NCBI GenBank assembly: GCA_020852855.1
Contig: JADZAA010000110.1
Coordinates: 1-32,403 of the forward strand
Source of the DNA: Bacteroidota bacterium
GTDB taxonomy: Bacteria > Bacteroidota > Ignavibacteria > Kapaibacteriales > UBA961
Length of the DNA: 32,403 nt
Reading direction: 5' to 3'
Numbering within the stretch: position 1 is the first letter of the stretch; the number at the start of each line of letters is the position of its first letter. Positions 5,192 through 30,879 of the stretch are shown one piece after another. The position numbers were made by a program, and so were the translations under genes. Under the pieces are notes generated by a model. That model was not told the origin of the DNA and made no database searches. It saw nothing but the letters and a program-made list of their open reading frames with translations.

Positions 5192-5860
5192 TTAGTTACA
5201 AATTCGCAGGCATGGTACGGGTTGCCCTGATACATTGTTGGTAGTTGCGGGACAAGTAGCACCGTTATTGACTATTTCCACAAGTGTTTCGTTCAGATGA
5301 GGAGTGCCGTCAGGAAGTAATTCCCAGCATACGCGCCATGCTTCTTCGCAACGCCCGTTATTTCCGTTACCGCAAGGTGTTCGCACAATATTTCCGGTAT
5401 TCGGGTCAAAAAACGGTTCCGAATAGCAACTCGCGTGAAGTATTCTGTATATAAGGCGGCTAAGAGCCGGGCAGGGCGGTATTTCGGTATTTATTGTATG
5501 TCCCGCTCCGCCATCTATAGTTTCCCAAGGTTTCTCTACCACAATGACAAATCGTGCACAAACACGAATTAAGTCGTTTATATCATAAGGTCCGCAATTT
5601 CCCGAACGAGAAATTTTGCCTATGTAAATTTCAACTTCACCGCCATTATACGGTGTAGTGCGCCAGCACCATTCAAAAGTGGTAAAACAACCGCTACCCA
5701 ATGGGGTTTCAATCATGTCAGTATATACACCAAAGAACGGTTTATTCGGATAATCGTTTGGCGCAGGGGTAGGGCATTGTGCTGTTGCATTTGAGAAAGT
5801 TAAGAATGCACCGCTCAAAACTATGAGCAATGAAGCGAGAAAATGTGTAGTTGCTTTCAT
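5192..5860 (-). CDS. Exported cysteine-rich protein of unknown function
   Basis: A 222-residue protein with a clear signal peptide (residues 1-27, hydrophobic core LLIVLSGAFL, likely cleavage NATA-Q). The mature part has about 13 cysteines spread over its length, including a dense cluster near PCGNGNNGRCEEAWRVCWE, suggesting a disulphide-stabilised extracytoplasmic domain. No T9SS tail, lipobox or known catalytic motif is visible. I do not recognise a family. It is separated by over 130 bp from the genes on both sides. The heptamer array at 6035-6125 lies about 175 bp upstream of its start, so that array is in a position to affect its promoter. Confidence 0.7.
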   Translation of the reverse strand: MKATTHFLASLLIVLSGAFLTFSNATAQCPTPAPNDYPNKPFFGVYTDMIETPLGSGCFTTFEWCWRTTPYNGGEVEIYIGKISRSGNCGPYDINDLIRVCARFVIVVEKPWETIDGGAGHTINTEIPPCPALSRLIYRILHASCYSEPFFDPNTGNIVRTPCGNGNNGRCEEAWRVCWELLPDGTPHLNETLVEIVNNGATCPATTNNVSGQPVPCLRICN

Positions 5861-6034: not shown

Positions 6035-6125
6035 CGGGCTTCGGGCTTCGGGCTTCGGGCTTCGGGCTTCGGGCTTCGGGCTTCGGGCTTCGGGCTTCGG
6101 GCTTCGGGCTTCGGGCTTCGGGCTT
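6035..6125. repeat. Heptanucleotide tandem array, 13 perfect copies of CGGGCTT
   Basis: Counted directly: 91 bases made of 13 identical, uninterrupted units CGGGCTT (AAGCCCG on the other strand), flanked by TATATAATATA on the left and CGCATGATTT on the right. The absence of any unit variation suggests recent slippage-driven expansion. It lies between the Cys-rich gene and ccmE, not inside a convincing gene. Confidence 0.97.
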
Positions 6126-6212
6126 CGCATGATTTTTCCGTCGAACTTGAAAATATACAATTAAGCGTTTGCAAAATAGGGGAATTTATGCAGACTGCCA
6201 AATAAAAAAAAG

Positions 6213-6402: not shown

Positions 6403-6780
6403 TTACATTTGTGCAGGCCCGGATTCATATTTTGAGGGACATTTTGTCAAAATTTCGCTTGCCTGCAAAGTATTGCCCACCACACGGCCTTTAACAACAA
6501 TGCTCTCGGCAATTTCAAAATTATTGGGACGTGCGCCATTGTATATCACGTCAATATTCTGGCCTGTTTCATCGGTCATCGTAAAAGTGAAAATATTTGC
6601 CGTATTATCGTAATTTGCACCCTTTTCTTTCAGCCATACGCCTTTCACCTGCACTTTACGGTCTGTGGCTTTGGCAGCAACTATATTAACATAATCAATT
6701 TTTGAACTGTCGAGCGCGTACAGTCCGAAAGCAAGAAAAGCGATGGCGATTACACCGCCTATAAGATAGCGAGTTTTCAT
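6403..6780 (-). CDS. ccmE: Cytochrome c maturation heme chaperone CcmE, CxxxY type
   Basis: A 125-residue periplasmic heme chaperone. Residues ~5-22 are an N-terminal membrane anchor, and residues ~40-110 form the OB-fold seen in CcmE (VQVKGVWLKEKG, FTMTDETGQNIDVIYNGARP, VVVGRVVGN-like segments). In the system I cytochrome c pathway, CcmE receives heme from CcmC and passes it to CcmF. The classic heme-binding motif is HxxxY; here the equivalent site is Cys114-Pro-Ser-Lys-Tyr118 (codon TGT at 6439-6441), i.e. the CxxxY variant known from some archaea and Desulfovibrio. No other ccm gene is in the window, so it stands apart from its pathway partners. It is divergent from the UDG gene with 111 bp between the starts. 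Confidence 0.88.
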   Translation of the reverse strand: MKTRYLIGGVIAIAFLAFGLYALDSSKIDYVNIVAAKATDRKVQVKGVWLKEKGANYDNTANIFTFTMTDETGQNIDVIYNGARPNNFEIAESIVVKGRVVGNTLQASEILTKCPSKYESGPAQM

Positions 6781-16936: not shown

Positions 16937-16942
16937 TATAGA

Positions 16943-16998
16943 GTGATTAGTGATTAGTGATTAGTGATTAGTGATTAGTGATTAGTGATTAGTGATTA
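16943..16998. repeat. Heptanucleotide tandem array, 8 perfect copies of GTGATTA
   Basis: Counted directly: 56 bases of GTGATTA repeated 8 times (TAATCAC in the cysS sense), with a partial unit GT after it. It begins 6 bases upstream of the cysS start codon at 16936 and ends 13 bases before the stop codon of the kinase gene at 17012, so it fills most of the intergenic space. Perfect repetition points to slippage. Confidence 0.97.
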
Positions 16999-17011
16999 GT
17001 TGTAAATTATT

Positions 17012-25207: not shown

Positions 25208-25610
25208 AGGAACTTACGAGATATGTAGCCTGCGCTGCGGCAGAAAGCGCGGACAATGTGAAAGATTTATTCCGCATAAAGCAATGCGCCGCCTGCAAAA
25301 AGCCGACGAACAACCAAGTCCCACTGCAACGGAAGATATTTTTTACTGCAATTACCGCAAAATTAGGTCTTTTTCGGCGAAGATAAAAATACAAGACAAC
25401 TATTTGCTTCGGCAATAGCGAGCAAAATATCGCTTTGAAATCTTCCGTAACTTTATCGGATATAAAAGGACAAGAAAATAAAATCTTTAATTCAAGTATA
25501 TTTTTGGAACTTTTGCGTACTTTGTTTAGTTTAAGAAGCAATTACCGTTAGTCGTATGTTTTTCCAACAAATGGAAACGGCAAACGGAAAAATAAATATA
25601 GGAGCATAGT
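25208..25610. other. Divergent promoter region between parA and the subtilase gene, 403 bp
   Basis: No gene is seen here. It must contain the promoters for parA (minus) and for the subtilase/propeller pair (plus). TAATTTTG on the minus strand (25358-25365) may be a -7 element for parA. A T-rich stretch with TACTTTG at 25518-25524 lies about 90 bases before the subtilase start, but is only a partial match to the consensus. Confidence 0.45.
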
Positions 25611-25613
25611 ATG
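25601..25613 (+). promoter_or_regulatory. RBS and upstream start codon of the subtilase, out of frame at present
   Basis: GGAG at 25601-25604 precedes ATG 25611-25613 by six bases, a good ribosome-binding arrangement. In the given sequence this frame encodes MKLLLRSSRARVSRNVG and then proline codons of the C-tract, and ends at TGA 25767-25769 after 52 codons. It would join the subtilase frame only if the tract lost one C (12) or gained two (15). It supplies the positively charged N-region a Sec signal peptide needs. Confidence 0.65.
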
Positions 25614-25653
25614 AAATTGTTGTTACGCTCTTCTCGCGCGAGGGTATCTCGCA

Positions 25654-28600
25654 ATGTCGGCCCCCCCCCCCCCAGTGTTATCTCTTTTTATCATTGCGAT
25701 AATCGCACTGCTTGCAGGCGGGACCGAAGCGTCGGGACAACCATGTTTAAAACTAGCCTTGCCCCATGACCCGGCAAACGGATATTTTAATCCCGATTCG
25801 GTAATGGTGGATAGTTGTGCTACCCCCCTTAGATATTATGCAAAAGAATGGTATAGGATAACATTTACAATTGACCCGTTTTTTATTCCAGAAGCACCCC
25901 GCGGCACCATAATAGAAAGAACGTGGCATGAAATTGACTCCAATTATTATACGCTAAAAATTGAAATGAGCATATTAGATTCGGCTTTCGGAAACTATAA
26001 ATTTAGGAAAGAATACCCGGATATAGTAGATAGTTCATCGGCCGCCAGCACCACCTATCTAATCAGATTCGACAGTTTGACAAGAATAGATTCTGTTGTT
26101 ACGCTTTTACGTGCAAGCACGTTCTGTCGAGAAGCGAATTATCGAAATCGTGCAGCAAAATTACTCGGGATGCCACTCAATGAGCCGGGTATGCTATTTG
26201 GCAATCCGCAGATGTACAACGGTACTAATTTTGAAAATTTTCGGAATAGTCTTACATTCACCAATACTTACCACAAACTTGGTATGCAATATCATCTATG
26301 GGCAATCAACGCTCCTATGGCATGGAAGATTACCGAAGGCAAACCGGATATTACAATTGCTGTTTATGATGGTTGGGATTCAAGAGACGTAATTTCAGAT
26401 ACCGGACATGGCACCGATGCTTCGGAGGATTTATATATGAGAATAAATAAGAAAGAAAATGGAGGTGTTAGTCAAGAGCCCAATACTGAAAATGGAAACT
26501 TTATTTTCAATCTGAAGAAAGATTTAAATAATAAATGGGAACGTGACCCGGGTGACGGCAGTATCCCACTGTGCCGACTAACTCACGGCCACGGCATGGG
26601 TTGCGCCAGCATTGCTGTTGCTGCAAAAAATGAGAAAGGAATGGTAGGCGTGGCACCCAAGTGTAGTGTTGTAGGCATCAACATAGGAAACGTGTCTTCA
26701 CTAATTGATGTAGACAACTCTAAAAAAGGAATTCAACCGCCGGACGTGTTTAGTTGCAGCGTCCATAATGTTGCTTTAGAAACCTCAGAGTTTCACATGG
26801 AAAACGGCTCGGTAGTCGTAGGCGTAAACTCAGCCGCCGGAAGTATAATTAAAAATGATGTAAAAGCATTGGCAATTGTACCAAATATCGGAGATGGCTA
26901 TACTTCCGCTTTTATATATAAACATCCTGGAAATAACGCAACCGAAGACGATGATGAAAGTTATGATCTTAAAAAATATAGGGTTTTCCCATTCAATAAT
27001 GGTAGCTCTACAGTAGAATGGGTTGATCCATGCATGCCTTTATGCACTCGCGAAAATAAAATACAGAAAATTGTACCTTTTGATTTTAAACTTCAATTCG
27101 GCTCAGGTATGATAGGTAGTTTCCAACACTATTATGACGGGGATTTTGAACATCAGATAACTGCTTGCGAAGAAATAGCAAAATTAAATAAGCATATTTA
27201 TTTCCCGAACAGAGAAACCTTATTATATCAAGACTTGAGATGGGATAACTTTACCAAAATAAATGAAGTGATACAAAAAAATAAAGCTACGATGGATATT
27301 GCCGCACCTTCTCAAGATATATTAATCGCCGGCTACGATGAAAAAGACTTAATGGGCAGATATTGGGTGTCAAGCGGGCCGTCTTTTGGTATTCCACAAA
27401 TTGCCGGCACAGTTGCATTGATAAAATCAGTTGATAAATATTTGGGAGTACCTCTCAACAATAATCTACCAACCAATCCTCTTTCTGTGTCCGGGAAAGC
27501 ATTCGATATCGTAACATTCACAGCAAAAAAGATTATTGCACCGTCGCAGTATGCTTATAACGGACAAAATGATAATATTGAAAAAGACAGTTTTAAAATT
27601 CGGATAGGTAATTCTTCTGCGGAATCTTCATTCGCTCAGAATAAAAATGAACTTTCATCTGCTTTTGACCCTCTCCAACGTTCTTTTTCGAACACTTGCG
27701 GTTACGGATTTCTCGATGCGTTCCGTTGTGTTGCTCACGCGATACCGGATAAAAAAGGTAGCACGGTAAATGTAAAATACAAATATGATGCAAACGATGC
27801 GCTTGACTGGGAAAATGCACATGTATTGGACGATAAGCAATTTCTCCATTTGGGTAAGTTTAAGAATGAAAATGATAGAGTTCTAGAAAAAGGCGGTAAT
27901 TTCTTTGATGAAGACGGCAACACCGAACCTATTTGGAAAAATAATCATGGCAAGACCGTAGTGAATACGGATTTATCCACCGGAGATAATCAAGTGCTTG
28001 TAATTGACGGTATAATGACTACTGACGGCACGGCAGGTCAGCACACAATCACTACAACCGACGAAGGAAAAATTCTGATAACCGGCTACTTAAAAAATGT
28101 TAATCTTGCAGGGAATATTTGCTTTGCCGACCTGAATGTGTATTCGATTTCCGTTCCTAATAACCCCGAGGCAGTTACTAACATCTCGATAAAGCAGACC
28201 TCAACGGAAAGCAATCAATCCGAGATATACGGCAAACTAACGCTGTTCGGCGGTACGAATCTGACGGTTGGAGAAGGTGCGAATCTAACGATTATGCCCG
28301 GCGGCTCGATTAATTTGAACGAAAAAGAAAACATTGTTGTGAAAAACGGCGCGACACTTACCATGGAATATGCTTCTTCAATAACGCAAAGTCCAATGAC
28401 AGGTACTACGCCAAGAATCATCATTGAAAATGGTGGCAAGCTTGTTGTTGAATCAAAAGCCCGTGCAGTAGAGTTGGTAGCTATGGTGCAGATTGAGGAA
28501 GGGGGAGAATTTATAATTAAAGATACTGTCGGCATTAAACTTTACGGCTTCAAAATTGAGAGCAACGGGACAATGAAGGTTGGCAAAGGTTCAGATATTG

Positions 28601-30879
28601 AACTAATATCCAATAAAGAGTGGTTTACCTATTGGAGCAAAGGAAAACTATTGTTGAATGACAGCACCATTTCAGACCCTTCTGCTAATCTGCCGTATCC
28701 TCATCCGAATAGAGTTACAATTTCTGGTAGGCGAGATAATTGTGGAAACGTCATTGAACCAGCAATAATATACTGCACTGGTGGTGTTGTAGAAAAAACA
28801 GGCGATGTTTTTACGTATCATGGTTTTCTAAGTGTTCGTAACACAGATTTTCTTGATGTGCGGCTATATCTAAGGAATATGAAAGTTCTCGGCGATGCCG
28901 AACACAACGGTAATACAATAGAAAACTGTGCCTTCTTTGCCAACTCTACTGCTAATCCCAACGTAGTTCGCCTTCAAAATTTAGTAAACCCAAGTACTGA
29001 AGATAAAGGCATAGGCATAGTGGGACCATTATTGCAGATTGATTTTGTACGACCATCTCCGTTCAGAGCATATTGGAATTTGCATCGAGCCGACATAGAT
29101 AAAATTACGGTCAAGGGTTGCACATTCAAAGACAATGCAGGTAGCAAAGAAAACCCTGCTGATTGGCAAAATGAAAATTCTACTAATAAGGAACGATACC
29201 ATGTGTCTGGCGTTGCGTTTAACGGTATGTACAGTGCCGTGGACGAGAATTCGACGCACGTTAATCTTCGGCACGGTGTCTATTCTGATATGTGTAGCGA
29301 CGTTTTGGTGCATCGCACCGGTACGCCAACGGGCAATAACTTTGAAACCTGCGACTTCGGCATATTAGACATGGCCTCGTCTGTCAAGGTCTGCAATAAT
29401 AGTTTCAACATAACCGGCGCAGCCATTTCATTAAACGGCTCGCATACAAGCGTTATCGTCGACAACTCTATCAATAACGTAGGCAGGGGAAGCGACCTCG
29501 AAAGTACGACCATACATCATCACCGTGCAAACAGCTTTAACAGTTACTTGCACGGCATTACTGTAAAAGCCGCCTACGCCAATCTTCGACCGATTTACAT
29601 CATTCCCGGCCCGTATAATTGTGCGGGCTGCCCGCCCCCAGTTCCCTATGATGTCATCTGGGGAAGGAATAAGTTTGATATAGAACCACTTCCATCAATT
29701 TCAAGCGAATGGCCAATATATACAGAAAAACATCCATTTTTGAAACAAAACAATTTTTTTGGTAGACAAGGCAATGCAGACTGCTATTTTGCAAACGATG
29801 AGACAAACAAGCCAATTGATGCCGCACAATTTTACATGAACTGTGGCTATAATGATATGGCGCAGTATAGTCAATACCATATTTCAAGTTTCTTTGACCG
29901 TACAGGGATTACTACTGTCGGTGTTGAGTACAACGAGATGAATCCTTCATGCAGCGTTAGGAATTATCAGGTAATAGTGAATAATCCCGTAAATTGCGAC
30001 AAAGAAGAAGCACCGGGCTGTACTGATATTATTGCCCCGCCAAACTCTTGCAGCACATTGCCGAATCCCGTCTGCCTCGATTCAATACCGAACGATGGCA
30101 GTTGGGCAAAATTGGATGCCGGCGGCTTTATGCTAACCCACTTGAATACGGTATCGTTACAGATGCTACACAATACATCGTTGGGCGTTGACTGCCGGCG
30201 GGTAAAAGCGTTCGACGCTCACCAAACTGCATTTTTGTTGATTGAGGACAGCACACGTGTGGCGATAGCCGCAGTCAGCAACGCCTTCGCTAATATTATC
30301 GCCGACACGTCCGAACCGGCCGCCTTGCGCTCGACGGCAATATTACTGAAAGCCGACATCCACGAACGCCTTGGAGAGTTTGACTCGGCAGTTACACTTT
30401 ATGCGCAACACGCCATTGAGTTCGACTCAACCGCTGATATGCATTACGCCTCGTGGCGGTCGGACGCGCTTGCCGCCCGCTTGACCGATACAACGCACGG
30501 TGTTGTCTATGATTCGCTTATGGGCGTGCTTCATGAGCGTATCTGCGTGGATAAATTCGGTGCATATTCTCCGCCGCTTGTCAAGCCCGGACACGATAAC
30601 TATCCTGCAACAGGTAAAGCCGCAACGTCGCTTACTGTGCATCCGAATCCCTTTGGCAATTCGACAACAGTGCAATGGCAACTTACTGAAAATGCCCATG
30701 TACGAATTGTTGTAACAGATGCATTAGGGCGCGTTGTTTCGCAAGTGTTTAACGGACAATGCAATACCGGTGTTTATAGTGCTTATTTCAACAGCACTGA
30801 ATTACCAGCTGGCGTGTATTATTGCCGACTTGAAACGATGGGAACTACATTAACGCGGCAAATAACACTTATCCGTTAA
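25654..30879 (+). CDS. Giant S8 subtilisin-like protease with beta-helix region and T9SS sorting domain
   Basis: A 1741-residue protease by the current frame. The catalytic triad is readable: Asp239 (IAVYDGWD), His313 (HGMGCASIA, matching HGTHVAGIIA) and Ser577 (SSGPSFGIP, matching GTSMAAP). The His-Ser distance of 264 residues is longer than in subtilisin (about 157), implying inserts. Residues ~30-200 may be a prodomain; ~780-1330 show beta-helix-like repeats (LTVGEGANLTIMPGG, NIVVKNGATLTMEY, RIIIENGGKLVVE). Residues 1660-1741 (VHPNPFGN, ending QITLIR) are a T9SS sorting domain, so a surface or secreted protease is inferred. From the ATG at 25654 (AGGG nine bases upstream) the N-terminus is MSAPPPPVLSLFIIAIIAL: a hydrophobic core without positive charge. 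The RBS-backed ATG at 25611 would add Lys and Arg residues but is one base out of frame because of the C-tract. Confidence 0.88.
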   Translation: MSAPPPPVLSLFIIAIIALLAGGTEASGQPCLKLALPHDPANGYFNPDSVMVDSCATPLRYYAKEWYRITFTIDPFFIPEAPRGTIIERTWHEIDSNYYTLKIEMSILDSAFGNYKFRKEYPDIVDSSSAASTTYLIRFDSLTRIDSVVTLLRASTFCREANYRNRAAKLLGMPLNEPGMLFGNPQMYNGTNFENFRNSLTFTNTYHKLGMQYHLWAINAPMAWKITEGKPDITIAVYDGWDSRDVISDTGHGTDASEDLYMRINKKENGGVSQEPNTENGNFIFNLKKDLNNKWERDPGDGSIPLCRLTHGHGMGCASIAVAAKNEKGMVGVAPKCSVVGINIGNVSSLIDVDNSKKGIQPPDVFSCSVHNVALETSEFHMENGSVVVGVNSAAGSIIKNDVKALAIVPNIGDGYTSAFIYKHPGNNATEDDDESYDLKKYRVFPFNNGSSTVEWVDPCMPLCTRENKIQKIVPFDFKLQFGSGMIGSFQHYYDGDFEHQITACEEIAKLNKHIYFPNRETLLYQDLRWDNFTKINEVIQKNKATMDIAAPSQDILIAGYDEKDLMGRYWVSSGPSFGIPQIAGTVALIKSVDKYLGVPLNNNLPTNPLSVSGKAFDIVTFTAKKIIAPSQYAYNGQNDNIEKDSFKIRIGNSSAESSFAQNKNELSSAFDPLQRSFSNTCGYGFLDAFRCVAHAIPDKKGSTVNVKYKYDANDALDWENAHVLDDKQFLHLGKFKNENDRVLEKGGNFFDEDGNTEPIWKNNHGKTVVNTDLSTGDNQVLVIDGIMTTDGTAGQHTITTTDEGKILITGYLKNVNLAGNICFADLNVYSISVPNNPEAVTNISIKQTSTESNQSEIYGKLTLFGGTNLTVGEGANLTIMPGGSINLNEKENIVVKNGATLTMEYASSITQSPMTGTTPRIIIENGGKLVVESKARAVELVAMVQIEEGGEFIIKDTVGIKLYGFKIESNGTMKVGKGSDIELISNKEWFTYWSKGKLLLNDSTISDPSANLPYPHPNRVTISGRRDNCGNVIEPAIIYCTGGVVEKTGDVFTYHGFLSVRNTDFLDVRLYLRNMKVLGDAEHNGNTIENCAFFANSTANPNVVRLQNLVNPSTEDKGIGIVGPLLQIDFVRPSPFRAYWNLHRADIDKITVKGCTFKDNAGSKENPADWQNENSTNKERYHVSGVAFNGMYSAVDENSTHVNLRHGVYSDMCSDVLVHRTGTPTGNNFETCDFGILDMASSVKVCNNSFNITGAAISLNGSHTSVIVDNSINNVGRGSDLESTTIHHHRANSFNSYLHGITVKAAYANLRPIYIIPGPYNCAGCPPPVPYDVIWGRNKFDIEPLPSISSEWPIYTEKHPFLKQNNFFGRQGNADCYFANDETNKPIDAAQFYMNCGYNDMAQYSQYHISSFFDRTGITTVGVEYNEMNPSCSVRNYQVIVNNPVNCDKEEAPGCTDIIAPPNSCSTLPNPVCLDSIPNDGSWAKLDAGGFMLTHLNTVSLQMLHNTSLGVDCRRVKAFDAHQTAFLLIEDSTRVAIAAVSNAFANIIADTSEPAALRSTAILLKADIHERLGEFDSAVTLYAQHAIEFDSTADMHYASWRSDALAARLTDTTHGVVYDSLMGVLHERICVDKFGAYSPPLVKPGHDNYPATGKAATSLTVHPNPFGNSTTVQWQLTENAHVRIVVTDALGRVVSQVFNGQCNTGVYSAYFNSTELPAGVYYCRLETMGTTLTRQITLIR
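25661..25673 (+). repeat. Homopolymeric tract of 13 C at the start of the subtilase gene
   Basis: Thirteen consecutive C bases follow GTCGG at 25656-25660 and lie between the two candidate start codons and the signal-peptide core. Tracts of this kind are classic phase-variation switches, because polymerase slippage changes the frame. They are also typical places for sequencing errors. Confidence 0.97.

Follow-up and report, generated by a model that had tools for sequence, protein, structure and literature searches.

The locus comprises a long protease gene on the plus strand, two start codons and a signal peptide. The longest C/G run of the genome, 13 cytosines (C13), is placed exactly between the two start codons and the signal peptide. 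The window, the whole stretch of 32,403 nucleotides that was analysed, is contig C110 of a draft genome of 138 contigs and 2.805 Mb (99% complete). The cysteinyl-tRNA synthetase of the window is 59–60% identical to those of bacterium Co_bin.359 MAG and Candidatus Kapaibacterium sp. BIN8 and 53% identical to that of one Ignavibacteria MAG. The features of the locus are as follows.

25600–25604, plus strand: AGGAG, a Shine-Dalgarno-like site 6 nt upstream of the first start, ATG 25611; duplex energy predicted against the 16S tail, −6.5 kcal/mol.
25611–25769, plus strand: leader ORF from ATG 25611 (MKLLLRSSRARVSRNVG-PPPP...), 52 aa at 13 C, stop TGA 25767–25769.
25633–25642, plus strand: CTCGCGCGAG palindrome inside the leader; a similar SR[A/T]R-coding stretch is found in tract leaders of relatives.
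25640–25644, plus strand: second Shine-Dalgarno-like site, GAGGG, 9 nt before ATG 25654; predicted anti-SD duplex, −7.6 kcal/mol.
25654–30879, plus strand: protease ORF as assembled, from the second start ATG 25654; 1741 aa by translation.
25661–25673, plus strand: C13 homopolymer, proposed hypermutable switch (sequence, run counts, frame table).
25675–25722, plus strand: hydrophobic core of the signal peptide (VLSLFIIAIIALLAGG), by translation; hydropathy 3.2 in a 14-aa window.
26575–27432, plus strand: Peptidase_S8 (subtilase) match, PF00082; E 1.7e-5, 24.7 bits, just over the cut-off of 21.8.
30637–30861, plus strand: T9SS C-terminal sorting domain (Por_Secre_tail, PF18962); E 2.6e-6, above the cut-off.

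Two perfect heptamer arrays are present elsewhere in the window. CGGGCTT × 13.3 (6035–6127) lies between the minus-strand genes 5192–5860 and 6403–6780. AGTGATT × 8.4 (16942–17000) ends 5 bp upstream of the start of cysS (minus strand, 16936), so that it fills the ribosome-site region of this usually essential gene. The copy number of AGTGATT could be variable.

By domain match and alignment, the protein is a predicted S8 subtilase with Asp/His/Ser. Residues D239, H313 and S577, conserved in the family, are present in the alignment with relatives; D239 precedes the Pfam match. A C-terminal autotransporter beta-barrel domain is absent, Pfam giving S8 and Por_Secre_tail only. The T9SS translocon is encoded in the same genome (SprA_N match, E 1.2e-42, at C82), which holds 96 Por_Secre_tail matches, the tail of the protease among them. 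The assignment of the protein by the earlier note to T9SS-sorted proteases is thus borne out by the PF00082 and PF18962 matches, SprA and the 96 sorting-domain matches.

ATG 25611 encodes the Lys/Arg-rich leader MKLLLRSSRARVSRNVGPPPP and continues out of frame as far as TGA 25767. A protease made from ATG 25611 would contain MKLLLRSSRARVSR joined to PPPPVLS..., and one made from ATG 25654 would start with MSAPPPP. Both starts had been placed and translated correctly in the earlier note, and the GGAG it saw at ideal spacing before ATG 25611 is part of the AGGAG 6 nt upstream. It had overlooked that ATG 25654 is backed by a ribosome site as well: GAGGG precedes it, with a predicted duplex of −7.6 vs −6.5 kcal/mol for ATG 25611. 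GAGGG lies partly within a hairpin, which is weak and, compared with shuffles, without significance. Over the two ribosome sites the fold does not exceed shuffles in stability (z +1.6 and +1.0), and an RNA switch is therefore not claimed. As a genome-wide element, CTCGCGCGAG was rejected, being no commoner than its reversed control (41 vs 53, one mismatch allowed). No second copy of the leader DNA is present in the viral contigs searched.

In pattern searches of the entire 2.805-Mb genome, only two C/G runs of at least 8 are found, C13 and one C10. C13 is not a chance feature of the genome, because there are no more than these two. Within the window the second-longest C/G run is 6. The C10 run is intergenic and adjoins transposase-like remnants (L024 1501–1510; G000:C26:3084–3093).

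On paper, the length of C13 modulo 3 determines which start codon, if any, is in frame with the signal peptide of the protease. When the tract is translated in silico at different lengths, ATG 25611 reads into the protease at 12 or 15 C (1755 or 1756 aa). With 10, 13 or 16 C, ATG 25654 is in the protease frame (1740–1742 aa). With 11 or 14 C, both starts are off; only products of 15–38 aa are made and the protease is not reached. C13 is far longer than the genome background of C/G runs and is placed where a change of length alters frame or initiation (10–16 C, three states), two of the marks of a contingency locus. That the tract separates the RBS-backed ATG 25611 from the protease frame, and that 12 (or 15) C bring this start into frame, had been proposed before and agrees with the coordinates and translations. 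The two-state switch proposed with it overlooks the third state, in which 11 or 14 C silence both starts.

The h-region is strong in both forms of the protease; the basic n-region is present in the 12/15-C form only. As had been noted earlier, the signal peptide from ATG 25654 carries no positive charge: translation gives zero basic residues before the h-region in this short form. A basic residue is present before the h-region in every homologous or neighbouring exported protein inspected. Export of the ATG 25654 form is perhaps weaker, because it differs in this respect from the homologues and window neighbours inspected. The mature Cys is about 31 aa from ATG 25654 and about 46 aa from ATG 25611.

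Close relatives of the protease are absent from the genome contigs scanned; only divergent homologues are found within the order, with about 24–41% identity over the aligned parts. In the closest of these the N-terminus, where it is readable, lacks a tract and carries an ordinary signal peptide whose n-region is basic. The tract at the protease gene is therefore, as judged from these tract-free N-termini, specific to its own lineage.

Tracts of this kind recur in other genes of relatives, that is, of the order of Candidatus Kapaibacterium/Ignavibacteria-type genomes. C/G runs of at least 10 occur in 64 of 99 genomes searched, a few per genome. About 110 tract places were examined among the matches listed; with places near contig ends dropped, 82 were classified, C13 of the window included. 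A 5′ position in an ORF of at least 180 aa is found for 31 of the 82 listed tracts vs 14.6% of random positions in the same loci (binomial 2e-7), a hydrophobic h-region follows the run in 17 vs 4.2% (binomial 5e-8), and an SD-backed ATG out of frame with the downstream ORF is found in 17 vs 2.8% (1e-10); these P values count related and paralogous loci as independent, refer to listed (non-random) tracts and include the tract of the window, and are to be read as strong, not exact. In all, 20 of the 82 listed tracts have an SD-backed ATG that opens into the tract and a long ORF following it; in 3 of them the ATG is in frame. The strict pattern GGAG-N3-9-ATG-N15-45-C10/G10 matches 6 + 5 = 11 separate places across 123 genomes of the order, vs 1 + 2 = 3 places for the same pattern reversed.

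In relatives, tracts recur after an SD-backed start and ahead of the signal peptide or N-terminus of secreted proteins; these are T9SS cargo, two other subtilases and YadA-like adhesins. Por_Secre_tail is matched at E ≤0.01 in 9 of the 20 tract-bearing ORFs tested, 4 of them above the curated cut-off. In the family of the window, the leaders before the tracts are MNTSVLPSRTREKL-(G10/11), MNTLVLSSRTREKL-(G10), MYKQFYGTPRARKT-(G10), MKMQNPLFADNSFAHARKTDLIVSTI-(C12), MQFLPNVRRSSAYMWNAVT-(C13) and MKHVTAVLPTSFLSRAKSV-(G15); that of the window itself is MKLLLRSSRARVSRNV-(C13). Several leaders of this family have an SR[A/T]R-like stretch ahead of the tract, which suggests a possible common descent of these leaders. 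Both other subtilases carry a T9SS tail and have the tract directly past the signal peptide, C14 and out of frame in L132 (G024), C10 and in frame in L138 (G068). They are related enzymes of a different family, which suggests more than one origin of tracts on subtilases. At L040/L088 (G003:C59 near 23374), a G15 leader ORF lies directly upstream of a 238-aa secreted-type ORF and of the S8 homologue of the C13 protease in G003. In one of three phases the G15 leader ends at an ATGA overlapping the following start, which suggests switching by translational coupling.

Differences of tract length are found between near-identical copies; these comparative data come from loci in the genomes of relatives, C13 itself being known from one assembly, the only one of its genus among the genomes searched. 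G002 and G005 are 99.97% identical over 3,015 bp, and their sole difference is one G in the tract (G11 vs G10), by which the leader ORF is OFF in one and a 212-aa signal-peptide protein is ON in the other. A paralogue pair in G002/G005 (96.9% identical) has G10 and G9, and a one-base insertion upstream keeps both in frame. The G090 paralogues L126 and L129, which are YadA-head/Peptidase_S74 adhesins, are 91% identical over 292 bp, with near-identical leaders and runs of C13 and C11; both are out of frame as assembled. In principle, the length differences at the loci of relatives could be homopolymer miscounts; the placement of the tracts could not. The earlier note had proposed phase variation by the tract and a comparison of its length across related genomes as the check. 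Placement enrichment and G11/G10 in G002/G005 speak for the proposal; the closest protease homologues are tract-free and speak against it.

The C13 locus is probably a simple-sequence contingency (phase-variation) locus, acting by slipped-strand mispairing on a T9SS-exported S8 subtilase. When the DNA is replicated, slipped-strand mispairing would lengthen or shorten C13 by single Cs. At 12 or 15 C the gene would be fully ON, with a precursor of 1755–1756 aa from ATG 25611 and a strongly basic n-region. At 10, 13 or 16 C it would be ON, perhaps with weaker export, the precursor of 1740–1742 aa starting from ATG 25654 with its own SD and no basic residue. At 11 or 14 C it would be OFF, with no protease. 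A population would then hold mixed tract lengths, its cells displaying different mixtures of secreted proteins.

Comparable switches are described in other bacteria. NalP is a subtilisin-like enzyme. Neisseria nalP (AspA) has a poly-C tract in the coding sequence, of 6–15 C, and is ON at 7, 10 or 13 C (PMC3723659); it is thus a surface protease switched by a coding poly-C tract, as is proposed for the C13 protease. NalP is an autotransporter, whereas the C13 protease has a T9SS sorting domain and its tract separates two alternative starts from the signal peptide. By analogy, the C13 protease would work like NalP, but is not a NalP-type autotransporter protease. In Neisseria, frameshift toggles an exported protein through poly-G in the signal-peptide region of pilC and through CTCTT in the leader of opa (PMC5354566). 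As at the C13 locus, these repeats lie at the 5′ end of the coding sequence, in the part for the signal peptide; the proteins, phylum and secretion route differ, and C13 precedes the hydrophobic core and follows two SD-backed starts. For Haemophilus influenzae lic2A, the title of Dixon et al. 2007 (cited in PMC3938747) names a repeat tract with alternative initiation codons. As far as the title conveys, repeat length selects among initiation codons with graded expression potential, as is proposed for C13; the repeat there is tetranucleotide, the product is an LOS biosynthesis enzyme and no signal peptide is affected. In the open-licence literature, no report was found that joins T9SS with homopolymeric phase variation or Kapabacteria with phase variation, and nothing relevant was found for Ignavibacteria.

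Assembly miscount is an unlikely explanation of C13. The true tract would then be a stable 12 C, with the protease always translated from ATG 25611 and the second start incidental. Homopolymers as long as C13 are error-prone, and in draft genomes such errors could turn 12 into 13, here in an assembly of 138 contigs, and yield the one-base difference of G002/G005. The basic n-region of all inspected homologues is likewise given only by the 12- or 15-C form. However, a miscount shifts the length by 1–2; it does not create C12–C13 where only one other C/G run of at least 8 exists, and does not account for the runs recurring at this position in relatives. A one-base assembly error, the alternative named in the earlier note, leaves the recurrence of the runs at one position in the secreted genes of relatives unexplained; the recurrence points to a real slip-prone switch rather than a single sequencing error. 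The exact length of C13 may be miscounted (13 or 12).

Slightly less probable again is a stable gene with 13 C, in which ATG 25654 with GAGGG is the real start, ATG 25611 is there by chance or opens a short upstream ORF, and a basic n-region is not needed for the signal peptide to work. The SDs of ATG 25654 and ATG 25611 are equally strong, and the distance of about 31 aa from ATG 25654 to the mature Cys matches the homologues better than the distance of about 46 aa from ATG 25611. Against this, the signal peptides of all inspected homologues and window neighbours have the basic residue that this form lacks, an SR[A/T]R-type leader also stands before the tract in tract genes of relatives, and a run of 13 C would remain unstable. 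Slippage in expression is very improbable. RNA polymerase or the ribosome would shift on the C run and give a fixed mixture of in-frame and out-of-frame products per cell from constant DNA; a +1 shift on CCC CCC out of the first frame does enter the protease frame. Tract length nevertheless differs between near-identical copies in relatives, and the runs are of either C or G, hence of different codons, which favours DNA slippage.

Phase variation through slippage of C13 thus remains the preferred reading. A set of such loci appears to be present in bacteria of the order, on proteins of the surface and secreted proteins, so that cells of one population would differ in their mixture of secreted proteins. 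A broader reading has about an even chance of being right. It comprises a lineage-wide phasome (C/G runs of 10–15 that separate an SD-backed start from the signal peptide or N-terminus of T9SS cargo and other surface proteins), a recurring SR[A/T]R-type leader in the family of the window, perhaps a portable leader-plus-tract module, and a three-state switch here from two SD-backed starts. In such drafts, automatic annotation will report many tract-bearing secreted genes as truncated or wrongly started.

The best-described cases of homopolymer phase variation come from host-adapted bacteria such as Neisseria, Haemophilus, Campylobacter and Helicobacter. Kapaibacterium/Ignavibacteria-type bacteria are uncultured and mostly environmental. 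The C13 switch may be of biological benefit; phage predation, grazing and the sharing of secreted enzymes are possible drivers, as guesses only. Phase variation on T9SS proteases and adhesins of an uncultured lineage suggests that bet-hedging with surface and secreted proteins extends well beyond the host-adapted group.
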